From NCBI GenBank assembly GCA_002731275.1, contig PCBK01000186.1:1-36397 (forward strand): a stretch of DNA of 36,397 bases, given 5' to 3'. Below are positions 17,459 through 35,085 of the stretch, in pieces. The position numbers were made by a program, and so were the translations under genes. How positions within the stretch are numbered: position 1 is the first letter of the stretch; the number at the start of each line of letters is the position of its first letter. A model generated the notes under the pieces. The model made no database searches and was not told the origin of the DNA. It saw only the letters and a program-made list of their open reading frames with translations. The stretch comes from Deltaproteobacteria bacterium (lineage in GTDB: Bacteria > Myxococcota_C > UBA6777).

Positions 17459-17762
17459 GGCTCTGAAAGACACGGGTTGTTGTTGTTGCGCAAAGTGGTT
17501 GTCCTGTCTCTTTATTTATCGTTTTCTTACTGTAGCGGAGGTCATCCAAAAGCGCAAGTTTGACGGGATGTGACGTGTCCATGTGTATACTTTGTCGCGT
17601 GAATTGGGGGCTTTGTGGTTATTTTTCTTGCGCTGGGCTAAAACGCTTGTCGCTGGTAGGAGAGATGGTACAGTTGTCCACATTCCATTCTTTGCGTATA
17701 CATGGCGTGTGTGCGCATGCTGTGGGCAATTGTGTCGTCAAAGAGAGAGCAGGTGGTGTTTG
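17459..17762. other. Divergent intergenic region between the M23 peptidase and XPB genes
   Basis: The plus-strand frame of XPB stays open to 17583, but the 60 residues it would add are Cys/Trp/Arg-rich and look non-coding. The region must contain divergent promoters; the one recognised candidate (17647-17674) reads toward XPB. No RNA gene was seen. Confidence 0.4.
17647..17674 (+). promoter_or_regulatory. Possible promoter for the XPB-Bax1 operon
   Basis: TTGTCG (17647-17652), 16 bp, TACAGT (17669-17674), about 90 bp upstream of the helicase start. It is a moderate match to the sigma70 consensus, oriented correctly. Confidence 0.35.
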
Positions 17763-19145
17763 ATGTGGCGTATCATTTTCGATGAAGGAACTATTTTACT
17801 TGAGACTCCAGAGGCATTAACCCTCGAACAAGAGAAGTCTATACCTGATGAGTGGGTGTGGGATCGTCGCGTCGATCGTTACCGTGCACGCGGCTGTGAT
17901 TATAGGACTGTACGTACTTGGGTTCACCGCCTCGGTGTTCCCTATGAGGACGAGGTCGCGACCTACCAAAATCTCTCCTTACGTCAACATATGGTCCGTG
18001 AACCCCGAGACTATCAACGCGAAGCGATCGACGCCTGGAAGCAGGCAGGCAAACGGGGGCTGATTTTGTTACCGACAGGGACCGGAAAGTCCTACGTCGC
18101 GCAGATGGCGATGGTAGAGACACAACGTTCTACGCTCGTGATCGCTCCCACAATCGATCTTGTCAACCAATGGTATGAGATCCTCTCTTCGGCTTTCCAC
18201 GTCCCTGTTGGGATGCTCGGCGGGGGCTACCACGAGATCGAAGACCTGACCGTCAGCACTTACGATTCGGCCTATATCCATATGGATCGACTGGGGCATC
18301 GTTTTGGCCTCGTGATTTTCGACGAGGTCCACCACCTGCCCGGACAAAGCTATATGCACGCAGCGTCTTGTATCATCGCTCCCTTTCGTCTCGGTCTGAC
18401 CGCGACACTGGAGCGACCTGATGATCGTCACCTGCTGCTTGATGAGGTCGTTGGAAATGTCGTCTACCACCGCTCCATTCGCGAACTCGCAGGCGAATAC
18501 CTCGCCGATTACCACGTCGAACGTATCGTCGTCGATCTGACCCCAGAAGAAGCCGAAAGCTATCACGAAGCGCGCGAGATCTACCGTTCCTTTGTGCGCG
18601 AGAAGAATATCCGGATGTCAGGACCCAAAGGGTGGGGGCATTTTGTCAGCTTGAGCAGTCGAAGTCGCGATGGCCGCCGCGCCATGAAGGCCTACCAGAG
18701 AGCGCGAAGACTCGCGCTCTCTGCGCCTTCGAAGCTGCAGGATCTTGAGGGGTTGTTGCGCCTTCACAGCAAAGATCGCGTGATTATCTTCACCAACGAC
18801 AACAACTCCGTGTACCGGATCAGTCGAAAGTTTTTGATCCCGGCCATCACTCACCAGACAGACGCCAAGGAGAGACGCGAGCTGCTACAGCGCTTCAACG
18901 ATGGGACCTATCCCTGTCTGGTCACCTCACGTGTCCTCAACGAGGGGGTCAATATCCCTGAAGCCAACGTTGGGATCGTCTTGAGCGGGACCGGCAGTGT
19001 ACGTGAGCACGTCCAACGCCTCGGACGGATCCTTCGTAAACAACCAGAGAAGAGGGCGATCTTGTACGAGATCGTGACAGGACAAACTGTCGAGACATTT
19101 GTAAGTGACCGTAGACGCGAACACGACGCATATCGCGATGAATAA
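17763..19145 (+). CDS. XPB/Rad25-type superfamily 2 DNA helicase
   Basis: The protein has 460 residues and matches the XPB (ERCC3/Rad25) helicases of archaea, eukaryotes and some bacteria, which open duplex DNA in nucleotide excision repair. Motifs in order: REPRDYQREAIDAW (Q-like), Walker A LPTGTGKSY (about 103-111), TYDSAY, IFDEVHHLP (DEVH box, 186-192), GLTATLERPDDRH (motif III plus the region holding the XPB 'RED' loop, here RPDD), IFTNDNN, LNEGVNIPEANVGIVL, and QRLGRILRK (motif VI arginines). The N-terminal 80 residues may be the small damage-recognition-like domain. The start at 17763 (ATG, preceded by AGGTGG) is chosen because upstream residues are not protein-like. The next gene is its partner Bax1, 23 bp downstream, as in archaea. 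An active ATPase is expected. Confidence 0.9.
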   Translation: MWRIIFDEGTILLETPEALTLEQEKSIPDEWVWDRRVDRYRARGCDYRTVRTWVHRLGVPYEDEVATYQNLSLRQHMVREPRDYQREAIDAWKQAGKRGLILLPTGTGKSYVAQMAMVETQRSTLVIAPTIDLVNQWYEILSSAFHVPVGMLGGGYHEIEDLTVSTYDSAYIHMDRLGHRFGLVIFDEVHHLPGQSYMHAASCIIAPFRLGLTATLERPDDRHLLLDEVVGNVVYHRSIRELAGEYLADYHVERIVVDLTPEEAESYHEAREIYRSFVREKNIRMSGPKGWGHFVSLSSRSRDGRRAMKAYQRARRLALSAPSKLQDLEGLLRLHSKDRVIIFTNDNNSVYRISRKFLIPAITHQTDAKERRELLQRFNDGTYPCLVTSRVLNEGVNIPEANVGIVLSGTGSVREHVQRLGRILRKQPEKRAILYEIVTGQTVETFVSDRRREHDAYRDE

Positions 19146-19168
19146 GCTTTTCGACGGAGGTAGATGAG

Positions 19169-20383
19169 ATGCTGACACTCGATCTCGTACGGGTTCGCAA
19201 GTCCAAGGGGGAGATCAAACCCCGGTACATCAAAGAGTCCAAGAAGTTGCTCGAAAAAGCAGAGATCCTGATTGGACTATACGACGAACACATCGACAAA
19301 ACACAGGGTGAACTCGAAGAGGCGATCAAGGATCTGATTGGCGATGGGACTGATTACCTATTACAGCGGGGGTTATCCAAGTTACTCGCGGATCGTTCGG
19401 AGTTTGAGATGGCCGCTCCGGTCGATCCACGTGAGATTCGACAGAAGGTCTTTGAACTCTCAGCCGAACACCATCCTGTCGCGATTACACCGGATCTTCA
19501 TCATCAGATGACACGAGAAGATATCCTGCGCATGGCGGGAGAATCATTTGGTCTCGACGTCGCGCAAATGAACGCCGCGTTGTACGCCGACTTGAAAGAC
19601 GCCTACATTCTGAAGTCGTTTAAGAGCATCACCCCGAAAAAGCTCCTACGTCGTTACAATGTCGCGCTCGCGCAAGCTGTGTTGTTTCGGGCGCGTGAGA
19701 TGCGGATCATGTTGCGCAACGCCAACACCAAGCGCCTCAGACAGTTGATTCGCTATGTGAAGTTCTTTCGCCTGATCGCCGATATCCGTCCTACAGATGA
19801 CGGATACTTTATCGTGATCGACGGTCCAGGGTCGCTGTTTCGTTTCTCCCAAAAGTACGGGCTGCAAATGGCCAGCTTCCTGCCTGCGTTGCTGTTGTGC
19901 GAAGATTGGAATCTCGAAGTGGAGATCCGATGGGAGGAAAAGCAACGTGAGCTGCACACTTTTACACTTGAGAGTGATGGGACACTGCACAGCCACTTTC
20001 CAGACAAAGGCCAGTATGTCACGGAGGAGGAGTCCTACTTTCGCAAACGGTGGAAAGATTACAAGTCTGCGTGGGCACTAAAACCCTCCTCAAAGATCGT
20101 CAAGCTCGGCGCAAAGGACCTGCTCGTTGTCGACTATGTGTTGACTCATGAGGACGGTCGCAAGGTGTTGTTGGAGCTTGTTGGCTTTTGGCACAAGCGT
20201 TCTCTCGTGCGAAAACTAGAAGCGATTGAGGAGTACGGACCGGACAACTTGATCCTCGTTGTACCTGCGAAGTTGCGCGTCTCTGAGGACGAATTACCCG
20301 AGACACAAGCCGCCGTGTACTTTTTTAAAAATGTCATCCAACCAAAACAAATCGTTGCGCTCGCAGAAGAGTTAAGTTCTTGA
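19169..20383 (+). CDS. Bax1-type nuclease (DUF790 family), partner of XPB
   Basis: This 404-residue protein matches the DUF790/Bax1 family, the archaeal XPB-binding nuclease that cuts DNA at the bubble opened by XPB. It has an N-terminal domain starting MLTLDLVRVRKSKGEIKPRY, a central helical region, and a C-terminal PD-(D/E)XK-like nuclease domain with LLVVDYVL ... VLLELVGFWHKRSLVRKL, where the Asp and Glu-x-x-Gly-Phe-Trp positions are the expected metal-binding residues. The 'ELVGFW' signature is characteristic. GGAGG (19156-19160) precedes the ATG at 19169, and the helicase stop is only 23 bp upstream, so the two are translated from one message. I infer a helicase-nuclease excision-repair module alongside, or instead of, UvrABC; this is not shown by the sequence itself. 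Confidence 0.9.
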   Translation: MLTLDLVRVRKSKGEIKPRYIKESKKLLEKAEILIGLYDEHIDKTQGELEEAIKDLIGDGTDYLLQRGLSKLLADRSEFEMAAPVDPREIRQKVFELSAEHHPVAITPDLHHQMTREDILRMAGESFGLDVAQMNAALYADLKDAYILKSFKSITPKKLLRRYNVALAQAVLFRAREMRIMLRNANTKRLRQLIRYVKFFRLIADIRPTDDGYFIVIDGPGSLFRFSQKYGLQMASFLPALLLCEDWNLEVEIRWEEKQRELHTFTLESDGTLHSHFPDKGQYVTEEESYFRKRWKDYKSAWALKPSSKIVKLGAKDLLVVDYVLTHEDGRKVLLELVGFWHKRSLVRKLEAIEEYGPDNLILVVPAKLRVSEDELPETQAAVYFFKNVIQPKQIVALAEELSS

Positions 20384-31833: not shown

Positions 31834-34461
31834 TCAGTGATCTTCTGGGTAGAGGTTATCAAAGCGCGTGTAGTCGTTGAAGAAGCGCATACGAACTGTA
31901 CCAATTGGACCGTTCCGTTGTTTACCGATGATCAGCTCAGCGAGTCCTTTATCTTCAGTGTCTTCATTGTAGACCTCATCCCGATAAACGAACATGATAA
32001 CGTCTGCGTCCTGCTCGATGGCTCCGGAATTGTGACTTACAACTCCATCTGAAATCCACGACGCTGGACCTGGAACTGTGAGATCGTAGACATCCTCTTC
32101 TCCAGCATCTTCGATAGAGCGGATCTCGTCCCAGAATAGATCACTTTGCGCTTTTTTGCGCAGCTCATCACTATCCTGTTGTCTTGGGATCGCGATCCGA
32201 TCATCCTCTTGAAGTTCAGCGATGCGTTTCCAGCCATTGTCAGTGAGGACGCGGTGTTTACCTGTTGCTGTGAGTGTGCGACCTGTAGAGAGAGTGAGAC
32301 GAAAAACGGGGCGTTTGCCAACTTTCCACACCTTGTCACTCAAGGTGTGGATGATCTTACCATCTGGTGTCACTGCCGCGACCTGAGGGGTTGTTCCAAC
32401 AAGATCACGGATGGGTTGTTGGCGACCATCCGCGAGCTGGACGAGGGTGTCACCAACGACACATTCCCGAAGGTCAGACATAACAGGGCGCTTGTCTGGA
32501 CGACGTTCGAGAGAGCGGTTGAGCTGTGAGAGGGCGAGGACAGGGACGTGAAGTTCTTTTGCGAGACCCTTGAGACCACGAGAGATCGCGGAGATCTCTT
32601 GTTCCCGGCTCTGCTCGTTTTTGTCACCCCTCATGAGCTGGAGGTAGTCGATCACAATCAGACCGATCTTTCCGTGCATCATTTTCAGACGACGACACTT
32701 TGAACGGACTTCGAGAACACTCGCGTTACCACCATCATCAATGTACAACTTTGAACGGGCGAGGTCAGAGGCCGCACGTGTCAGCTTGGGGATGTCATTG
32801 TCCTTCATCTGCCCTGTACGAAGACGACCCGAGTTCACCCGTGCGAGTGAACAGAGCATCCTCATCATCAACTGCTCCTTACTCATCTCAAGAGAGAAGA
32901 TCGCCACAGGAAATTCGTGGAGGACCGCTGCGTTACTCGCCATGTTCAGGGCGAGTGAGGTGTTGTGTGTGACGATGTACTGATCTGTGATGTAGAGAGC
33001 ATCTGGGTGACTGACCTTGATACATTGTGTCTGTGTGTCTCTGCTGTACTCGATGCTCTTAAGTGCCAGTGTGTGTGTCGTTGTCGGAAGTCTGAGCGTG
33101 ATCTTCCACTCTTGTACTTGGGAGGACGACGGAGCAAGCGAGGCGATCCCACCGAGTGAGCGGACGAGTTGGAGCGTGTCGAGCGCAAGAGGCTCGTGGG
33201 GGGTGGTGAAGGTGTAAGTCTCTGGTGAAGTCGTGTGCGCTTGGGCACCACCTTCGAGTAGGCCTGAGAGCAGGGCGCGACGTTGGGGACGTGAAGCTTC
33301 GAGATAATCGAGTGGGATGCGTTTGTCTGCACCACTTAGAGAGTGTGCTGGATCGCGTTGTTTTTGTGGATCGCTTAGCTGGAAGGCGAGCGAGGTGTAG
33401 GGGTTGGTCAGGAGTTTACCGAGGACATGAGGATCGAGAGGTAGATCGCTCTCTTCGCCAAAGTCTCCACTTGAGAGTGGGATGGAGAAGGGCCCTTCTT
33501 GCTGTTCTTGAAGAGACATCCACTCTTCTGTGGAGAGGATGCGGTGTGTGTCCCAGGATGGGTGAGAGACGTGCCAGAGGTGCTCGGCGCAGGCTTCTGT
33601 TTGGCGGCCATCTTCGAAGGTCAGTGTGTAAACGGCTCGACGACCTTGGGGATAGATTCCCGTGACAACAGAGGGGCGTCCGTCGTGGGAGGCCAGCGGT
33701 TGTCCGAGCTCCAGGTCGCCCATTTGTGTCCAACCTGTGGGGGTCTTGATGTGGGCGTCGAGGGGTTGCGCTTTCCCCATACTAGGACGTCCTGCGAGGA
33801 TGATAAGGTCAGTGGGTTGGAGACCGGAGGACATCTTGTCGAAGTCATCGAAGCCTGTTGGGATCCCTGTGACGAGTTCTTTCTTTTCGTAGAGGCCTTC
33901 GATGATTTTGAAGGTATCCTTGACGATCTCGTGGGAGGGAGTGAGGTCTTTTTGTTCCCGCTCTTGGCGGATCTCCATGACCTTGCGCTCTGCGGTGTCG
34001 AGGAACTCACCAACATCTTCGACGTTAGAGTAGGCTTCGATCACGATCTCGGAGGCGATCGTGATCAGGCGCCTGATGATCGACTTGGAACGAATGATCT
34101 GCGCGTAGTAAGCGATGTTTGCCGTTGTGGGGATGCGGTCTACGAGTTCGGACAGATAGGGAAGTTGTCCCACTTTATCGAGCTGGTCACGTGATTTGAG
34201 TTTGTTGGCGAGGGTGATGACGTCGATCGGTTCACTCTCGATCTCGAGATCTTTCATGGCTTCGAAGATGAAGCGGTGTTTGTCGAGATAGAAGTCCTGG
34301 CCTTTGATCGAGGTGGTCAGCTCATTGATCGCTTTGTTGTGGAGGAGGACTGCACCAAGAACGGATTTTTCGGCTTCGAGATCATGGGGAGGGACATGGC
34401 GTTGGAGATCGTGCAGGCTGAGTTCTTGTTTCTTCTTGTCTTTGCTGAATTTTTTGGCCAT
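31834..34461 (-). CDS. dnaB: Replicative DNA helicase DnaB containing two inteins
   Basis: DnaB is the ring helicase that unwinds the replication fork. The precursor has 875 residues; without the two inteins (residues 231-500 and 667-811) the helicase is 460 residues, the normal size. Extein motifs: N-terminal LEAEKSVLGAVLLHNKAI, GIPTGFDDFDKM, Walker A GRPSMGK interrupted before TSLALN, Walker B LIVIDYLQLM, SQLNRSLERRPDKRP, MSDLRE interrupted before SGAIEQDAD, then FVYRDEVY and the end DNLYPEDH. The first insertion is inside the ATP-binding loop, so DnaB can be active only after splicing. It is the last gene of the rpsF-rpsR-rplI-dnaB cluster, the usual order. The gap from rplI is about 180 bp and contains a TATAAT, so a separate promoter is possible. 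GGAG lies about 12 nt before the ATG. Confidence 0.97.
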   Translation of the reverse strand: MAKKFSKDKKKQELSLHDLQRHVPPHDLEAEKSVLGAVLLHNKAINELTTSIKGQDFYLDKHRFIFEAMKDLEIESEPIDVITLANKLKSRDQLDKVGQLPYLSELVDRIPTTANIAYYAQIIRSKSIIRRLITIASEIVIEAYSNVEDVGEFLDTAERKVMEIRQEREQKDLTPSHEIVKDTFKIIEGLYEKKELVTGIPTGFDDFDKMSSGLQPTDLIILAGRPSMGKAQPLDAHIKTPTGWTQMGDLELGQPLASHDGRPSVVTGIYPQGRRAVYTLTFEDGRQTEACAEHLWHVSHPSWDTHRILSTEEWMSLQEQQEGPFSIPLSSGDFGEESDLPLDPHVLGKLLTNPYTSLAFQLSDPQKQRDPAHSLSGADKRIPLDYLEASRPQRRALLSGLLEGGAQAHTTSPETYTFTTPHEPLALDTLQLVRSLGGIASLAPSSSQVQEWKITLRLPTTTHTLALKSIEYSRDTQTQCIKVSHPDALYITDQYIVTHNTSLALNMASNAAVLHEFPVAIFSLEMSKEQLMMRMLCSLARVNSGRLRTGQMKDNDIPKLTRAASDLARSKLYIDDGGNASVLEVRSKCRRLKMMHGKIGLIVIDYLQLMRGDKNEQSREQEISAISRGLKGLAKELHVPVLALSQLNRSLERRPDKRPVMSDLRECVVGDTLVQLADGRQQPIRDLVGTTPQVAAVTPDGKIIHTLSDKVWKVGKRPVFRLTLSTGRTLTATGKHRVLTDNGWKRIAELQEDDRIAIPRQQDSDELRKKAQSDLFWDEIRSIEDAGEEDVYDLTVPGPASWISDGVVSHNSGAIEQDADVIMFVYRDEVYNEDTEDKGLAELIIGKQRNGPIGTVRMRFFNDYTRFDNLYPEDH
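32029..32463 (-). mobile_element. Class 1 mini-intein in DnaB (second insertion)
   Basis: This 145-residue intein sits between MSDLRE and SGAIEQD, the classic DnaB site also used by the Synechocystis/Rhodothermus DnaB inteins. Splicing residues: Cys1 (CVVGDTLVQLADG, block A), block B TATGKHRVL with His70, block F VYDLTVPGPASWISDG, block G VVSHN with penultimate His144 and Asn145, and Ser as +1. There is no endonuclease domain, so it is a natural mini-intein. The block F 'PGPHNF' histidine seen in relatives is missing (PGPASW), which might slow Asn cyclisation. All other splicing residues are intact. Confidence 0.93.
32962..33771 (-). mobile_element. Class 3 intein in the Walker A loop of DnaB (first insertion)
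   Basis: This 270-residue intein lies between GRPSMGK and TSLALN. It begins with Ala, not Cys or Ser (AQPLDAHIKTPTGW), and carries the class 3 'W-C-T' set: Trp66 in block B (AEHLWHV), Cys250 in block F (QCIKVSHPDALYI) and Thr268 in block G (IVTHN). In class 3 inteins the block F Cys forms the first branched intermediate. +1 is Thr. The middle (about 105-215) is a decayed LAGLIDADG endonuclease: the motifs read HVLGKLLTN and RALLSGLLEGG, without the catalytic acidic residues. Homing by its own enzyme is therefore unlikely. Confidence 0.9.
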
Positions 34462-34641: not shown

Positions 34642-35085
34642 TTACTGAGCGACAACCCATACTTTCACGGGAACAGTGACTTCGGGATGAAGTTTGATTT
34701 GACACTCATATACGCCGAGTTTCTTGACCGAGTCGTCCATTGTGATCTGACGACGGTGGATCTTGAAGTTCTCTTCGCGGAGCGCTTCGCCGATGTCACG
34801 TGTGGTGACGGAGCCGAAGATACGATCTTCTTCACCGACCTGACGTGTGATCGTGACGGAAGTAGCCTTCAGTTCTTCAGCGAGCTTGAGTGCTTCTCTT
34901 TTTGCTTTCTCTTGGCGCAAAAAGATCTGACGTTTTTCGTGCTCAAGGCGACGAACATTTTTCTCGGTAGCCACAGCTGCGAGGTCACGTGGGAGCAAGA
35001 AGTTTCTTGCATATCCATCTGCAACCTTCACGATTTCACCGGGTTTTCCGAAGCCTTTGATTTCTTCTTTCAGGATGACTTTCAT
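34642..35085 (-). CDS. rplI: 50S ribosomal protein L9
   Basis: L9 binds 23S rRNA and helps keep the reading frame. 147 residues, standard length. The N-terminal domain MKVILKEEIKGFGKPGEIVK, VADGYARNFLLPRDLAAVAT is highly conserved, the connecting helix (KRQIFLRQEKAKREALKLAE) and C-terminal domain (FGSVTTRDIGEAL, KLGVYECQIKLHPEV) are complete. Start 35085 is 25 bp after the rpsR stop, so the two are co-translated; the gene belongs to the rpsF operon. Confidence 0.98.
   Translation of the reverse strand: MKVILKEEIKGFGKPGEIVKVADGYARNFLLPRDLAAVATEKNVRRLEHEKRQIFLRQEKAKREALKLAEELKATSVTITRQVGEEDRIFGSVTTRDIGEALREENFKIHRRQITMDDSVKKLGVYECQIKLHPEVTVPVKVWVVAQ

Follow-up and report, generated by a model that had tools for sequence, protein, structure and literature searches.

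The dnaB gene of a Deltaproteobacteria bacterium carries two inteins of different classes, a class 3 intein (intein 1) in the Walker A loop and a class 1 mini-intein (intein 2) in the DNA-binding loop of the encoded helicase. As judged from the sequence, this is very probably the chromosomal replicative dnaB of an intein-rich genome, with two inteins that have become immobile and that would persist because each of them splices. The window, that is, the whole stretch of DNA that was analysed, is 36,397 nucleotides long, and its features around dnaB are as follows.

34642..35085, minus strand: rplI (ribosomal protein L9), the upstream neighbour of dnaB (TIGR00158, 151 bits)
31834..34461, minus strand: dnaB, encoding an 875-aa precursor (460-aa DnaB without both inteins), by ORF and profile match
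33772..34461, minus strand: N-extein, aa 1-230, ending in the Walker A residues GRPSMGK (PF00772 at 34090-34392)
32962..33771, minus strand: intein 1, aa 231-500, 270 aa, class 3, at GRPSMGK|T, by signatures, PDB sequence and fold matches, and tree
33589..33591, minus strand: Cys61, the sole other Cys of intein 1, in the block B CxxH
33574..33576, minus strand: Trp66 of the WCT triplet, block B
33232..33435, minus strand: LAGLIDADG endonuclease remnant of intein 1, lacking both catalytic acids
33022..33024, minus strand: Cys250, block F, predicted catalytic nucleophile of intein 1
32968..32970, minus strand: Thr268 of the WCT triplet, block G
32464..32961, minus strand: middle extein, aa 501-666, from the T of GKT to DLRE
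32029..32463, minus strand: intein 2, aa 667-811, 145 aa, class 1 mini-intein without endonuclease, at DLRE|SG
32461..32463, minus strand: Cys1 of intein 2, predicted class 1 nucleophile
31834..32028, minus strand: C-extein, aa 812-875, and stop codon

Anatomy of the two-intein dnaB gene

The dnaB frame comprised 875 codons with no stops and no frameshifts. The extein matched TIGR00665 over profile positions 2-433 of 435 (557.7 bits), and this match spanned both inserts. Removal of aa 231-500 and 667-811 left a 460-aa protein with an uninterrupted Walker A motif (GRPSMGKT) and the DNA-binding loop DLRESGAIEQDAD. Both the N-terminal and the C-terminal domain of a replicative helicase were present, and rplI adjoined the gene, as expected for a chromosomal replicative dnaB.

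We searched the 10.75 Mb genome for a second DnaB with PF00772 (DnaB N-terminal domain), PF03796 and the spliced DnaB. PF00772 had a single match, the dnaB with two inteins, which was also the sole match of the spliced protein. PF03796 matched dnaB itself and three weak places, all lacking the N-terminal domain; the one inspected was a 306-aa protein. No second DnaB was thus found in this assembly of 200 contigs, which is 94.65% complete with 5.5% contamination, so that a further copy could sit in a gap. The earlier note had read the locus as one dnaB gene with two inteins of different classes, a reading that an intein-free second copy would have undermined; it was confirmed residue by residue, W66, C250 and T268 among them. 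The host genome is large and intein-rich, with further inteins in PhoH-like ATPase, GyrB, QueC and SpoVR genes (L047-L050; contigs C143, C48, C83 and C34). Elsewhere in the window, an XPB-type helicase gene is followed by a DUF790 gene (17583-20383), the latter presumably Bax1-like, and a 24-bp tandem repeat of 7 copies runs up to the contig end (36227-36397).

Intein 1 begins with Ala and has no Cys, Ser or Thr at position 1. Alignment placed W66 at B:12, C250 at F:4 and T268 at G:5, and class 3 inteins are defined by this Trp-Cys-Thr triplet (PMC5222942); block B H64, the terminal H269-N270 and T+1 were all present. We gathered 123 class 3 relatives solely via the motif GWT[TQ]M, which avoids the triplet positions, and found the Trp in 123, the Cys in 123 and the Thr in 121 of them. 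The best PDB sequence matches were the class 3 inteins Msm DnaBi1 (6bs8, 1.2e-9) and M. chimaera DnaB1 (6rix), both of which were also retrieved by fold from the intein 1 model (pLDDT 92.8). The top fold ranks went to larger intein-endonucleases, e.g. PI-SceI, because of the endonuclease remnant in intein 1. Intein 1 had no match to the general Pfam and NCBIfam intein families, and a search of the genome for a second class 3 intein returned intein 1 only. Intein 2 had C1, the block B residues T67-G-K-H70, the block F residue D127, H144-N145 and S+1, and it matched Pfam Intein_splicing (9.1e-20) as well as NCBIfam intein_Nterm and intein_Cterm. It resembled cyanobacterial class 1 DnaB inteins, with 4o1r as the closest solved structure (8.3e-26). 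These results uphold the class 3 assignment of intein 1, on the triplet, the lack of a nucleophile at position 1 and T+1, and the class 1 assignment of intein 2, on Cys1, TxxH, the block F Asp, His-Asn, S+1 and the Intein_splicing match. The insertion point of intein 2, RE|SG, is not the RESG|S site of actinobacterial and Ssp DnaB-a inteins and lies two codons upstream of it.

The two inteins would splice by different routes. In intein 2, Cys1 would attack the N-junction, Ser+1 would take the N-extein and Asn145 would cyclise, joining the exteins. In intein 1, the N-junction would be attacked directly by Cys250, in an active site with His64 and Thr268, after which Thr+1 would take over, Asn270 would cyclise and the P-loop GKT would be restored. 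Without splicing, DnaB is expected to be inactive, since the inserts interrupt ATP binding as well as DNA binding; the claim that both inteins must splice before the helicase can work follows from their sites, and the same need has been argued for M. smegmatis (PMC6195587, PMC7360933). With this protein as the sole DnaB found in the genome, splicing must work if the cell replicates.

All splicing residues of intein 1 are retained despite the loss of its endonuclease catalytic positions, which read LLTNP and LLEGGA compared with LLGDG and LMDTDG in the relative G089; the endonuclease domain is also partly deleted. With both catalytic acids gone from intein 1 and no endonuclease in intein 2, both inteins are predicted to be unable to home. 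They may be retained since each splices, or since exact deletion is rare.

Distribution and origin of the inteins

We compared the dnaB genes of five members of the same family, the source genome and four others, for each insertion, a check that the earlier note had proposed. An intein occupied RE|SG in 5/5 members, and those of the four relatives measured 422, 162, 183 and 423 aa, some still with an endonuclease. The P-loop site was empty in 3/5, held a class 1 intein in 1/5 (G003) and a class 3 intein in 1/5 (the source genome). The G003 intein is 279 aa long, begins with Cys1, ends with VYDLTIPETHNFVANDICVHN and sits exactly at GRPSMGK|T (L043:4074-4910). One and the same peptide bond is thus empty, class 1 or class 3 within one family, and a single loop of one protein can host either chemistry among related bacteria. 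The G003 P-loop intein was ruled out as a relative of intein 1, being class 1 and only 21-27% identical; its endonuclease motifs seem decayed. Two further members, G002 and G004, have exteins that are 97.7% identical and RE|SG inteins of 162 and 423 aa (L045:3296-3781, L046:3480-4748), a difference that corresponds to a clean in-frame loss of the endonuclease. G004 also has a second DnaB without an intein (449-aa frame, 41% identical; contig C418:412-1698).

A search of 386 genomes with the motif DLRE|C..G.T matched the five family members and two other genomes, one of which was G089 of an unrelated bacterial family, f86. In the G089 DnaB, both sites were occupied, by inteins of the same two classes (349 and 421 aa). 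Among 20 genomes of f86, six had both sites filled, two the P-loop only, two RE|SG only, and ten neither. RE|SG inteins in DnaB were observed at L043-L046, L221 and L236-L244, and two viral contigs (L212, L213) had them as well.

In the tree, intein 1 grouped with the P-loop DnaB inteins of f86 (99/96), near a DnaB intein from a phage contig, and the actinobacterial DnaB-b clade was split from it (99/97 in the first tree, 98/91 in the second), all these forks depending on about 115 alignment columns. The actinobacterial branches rule out that intein 1 belongs with the mycobacterial DnaBi1. Identity of the splicing domain between intein 1 and the f86 inteins was about 60% (57-64% in the N part, 49-63% in the C part), compared with 46-48% between the DnaB exteins of the source and f86. 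Inteins usually evolve faster than exteins, so a splicing domain that is closer than its extein points to horizontal transfer; intein 1 probably came by such transfer. It probably arrived later than intein 2, from a phage-type class 3 lineage, and its endonuclease would have decayed after arrival. In the tree of intein 2, the family was not recovered as a single group, and an AU test did not reject descent within the family (p 0.116); intein 2 may have come down with the family or been exchanged with f86.

When viral contigs were scanned with only intein 1, no relatives came up; an alignment that added the two mycobacterial N-terminal regions retrieved 385. Phages and mycobacteria have been suggested to exchange class 3 inteins (PMC5050341). 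The known class 3 inteins number at least 1701, and 82.5% of these have endonuclease motifs (PMC7891396).

This distribution bears on why one protein carries both inteins. The pair is explained equally well by two mobile elements that independently reached the two most conserved loops of DnaB. That such homing elements hit the most conserved targets in dnaB, and that their co-occurrence has no functional meaning, is a reading we consider fairly probable. All four site states occur among the 20 genomes of f86, the P-loop of the source family is variously empty, class 1 or class 3, and most relatives have an endonuclease. This reading is compatible with inteins that persist because each splices, it differs from a regulatory role solely by denying any use after fixation, and none of our results argues against it.

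The second cysteine and possible splicing-based control of replication

In M. smegmatis, DnaBi1 is slow and is blocked by Cys48-Cys118 disulfide oxidation and by zinc, which is bound by C118, V119 and Y128, whereas DnaBi2 is fast and insensitive (PMC6195587, PMC7360933). By analogy, splicing-based control of replication is plausible for the present DnaB. A slow class 3 intein blocked by oxidants or zinc, together with a fast class 1 intein, could act as a two-input brake, so that stress would pause DnaB maturation, possibly through a Cys61-Cys250 disulfide. Intein 1, too, has exactly two Cys, and the zinc ligand positions are retained in it (C250, I251 and Y260); with mobility apparently lost in both inteins, the selfish reason for retention would be gone. 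However, Cys48 itself is missing (Val47 stands at its position), and some close relatives, such as G089, lack a second Cys in the splicing domain. Moreover, loss of an endonuclease implies no function, and essential genes rarely lose an intein by precise deletion anyway. In the class 3 AceL NrdHF intein, the only non-catalytic Cys, at another position, is dispensable (PMC7891396). Taken together, we consider such a brake doubtful.

The brake would draw further support from the distribution of the second Cys. Cys48 of Msm DnaBi1 has been termed non-conserved, yet all mutations tried abolished splicing (PMC6195587). We counted non-catalytic Cys residues in the 123 class 3 inteins and found them at the Cys48 position only in 79, in block B only (positions 60 or 61 of intein 1) in 33, at both in 2 and at neither in 9. 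A second Cys thus occupied either of two places in 114 of the 123 relatives, and the mean Cys frequency elsewhere in the N-terminal splicing region was 0.4%. A first count had used a set partly gathered by motifs covering those positions, and the recount on the 123 agreed with it. The pattern is strongly clade-bound, and a test on tree pairs was below significance, with too few independent pairs. The one-or-other arrangement was seen across the class 3 inteins of L052-L211, L221 and L236-L242. In intein 1, the sole non-catalytic Cys is Cys61, the block B version. Class 3 inteins may carry one non-catalytic Cys, at one of two near-exclusive places (the Cys48 position, or block B beside the catalytic His), as a redox partner of the catalytic Cys, with Cys61-Cys250 of intein 1 as a second, independently built latch that likewise sits in the P-loop of the sole replicative helicase, but we hold this to be rather unlikely and take the two-Cys pattern as a lead for a redox test, nothing beyond. 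If functional, the pattern would explain why Cys48 of Msm DnaBi1 is immutable, and redox control of replication would reach beyond mycobacteria.

That intein 1 is a dead, non-splicing relic and another helicase does the work is extremely improbable: its endonuclease catalytic residues are gone, but its splicing residues are intact, its frame is open, our searches of the assembly found no further DnaB, and an unspliced insert in the P-loop would destroy ATP binding. Our preferred reading is that of two immobile inteins that persist in the replicative dnaB because each would splice, and the gene illustrates how inserts settle and lose mobility.

Comparison with known two-intein helicases

The closest solved relatives of intein 2 are the class 1 inteins of Ssp and Npu DnaB (1mi8, 4o1r), which are inserted at RESG|S, unlike the RE|SG site of intein 2. 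Intein 1 shares features with the class 3 inteins of phage P-loop ATPases, among them the DnaB of a phage contig (L059); like intein 1, these inteins begin with AQPL, end with CI..-HP-LYITD-VTHN and are inserted after the P-loop Lys. The phage inteins reside in phage proteins and mostly have an endonuclease, whereas the remnant in intein 1 is decayed. The nearest relatives of intein 1 are the f86 P-loop inteins (up to 65% identity over the splicing domain), and the six f86 pairs (G089, G394, G396, G406, G414 and G416) have identical two sites and identical two classes. The inteins of these pairs, for example those of G089, are longer than the 270 and 145 aa found here, and the LAGLIDADG motifs of the G089 P-loop intein look intact.

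In M. smegmatis, DnaB has two inteins, the class 3 DnaBi1 in the P-loop (site b) and the class 1 DnaBi2 in motif H4 (site a) (PMC6195587). It has in common with the present DnaB a class 3 intein directly after the Walker A Lys and, in the same DNA-binding loop, one of class 1, and both DnaBi1 and intein 1 have the WCT triplet and two Cys. Intein 1 differs from DnaBi1 in its phage-type clade, Thr+1, decayed endonuclease remnant and Cys61 instead of Cys48; DnaBi2 has an endonuclease, whereas intein 2 is a mini-intein. Among actinobacterial DnaB genes with a P-loop class 3 intein, a second intein was present in 19 of 63 loci, a non-random sample of best matches with a readable second site, and it was always inserted as RESG|C...|S, two codons downstream of RE|SG. 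The class 3 and class 1 pair in DnaB is thus already known and widespread in Actinomycetota, and also present in f86; what is new here is detail, namely the phage-type clade of intein 1, the RE|SG site and a class 1 intein at the same P-loop bond in a relative. The pair, studied only in mycobacteria, has thus arisen on more than one occasion, out of different intein lineages.
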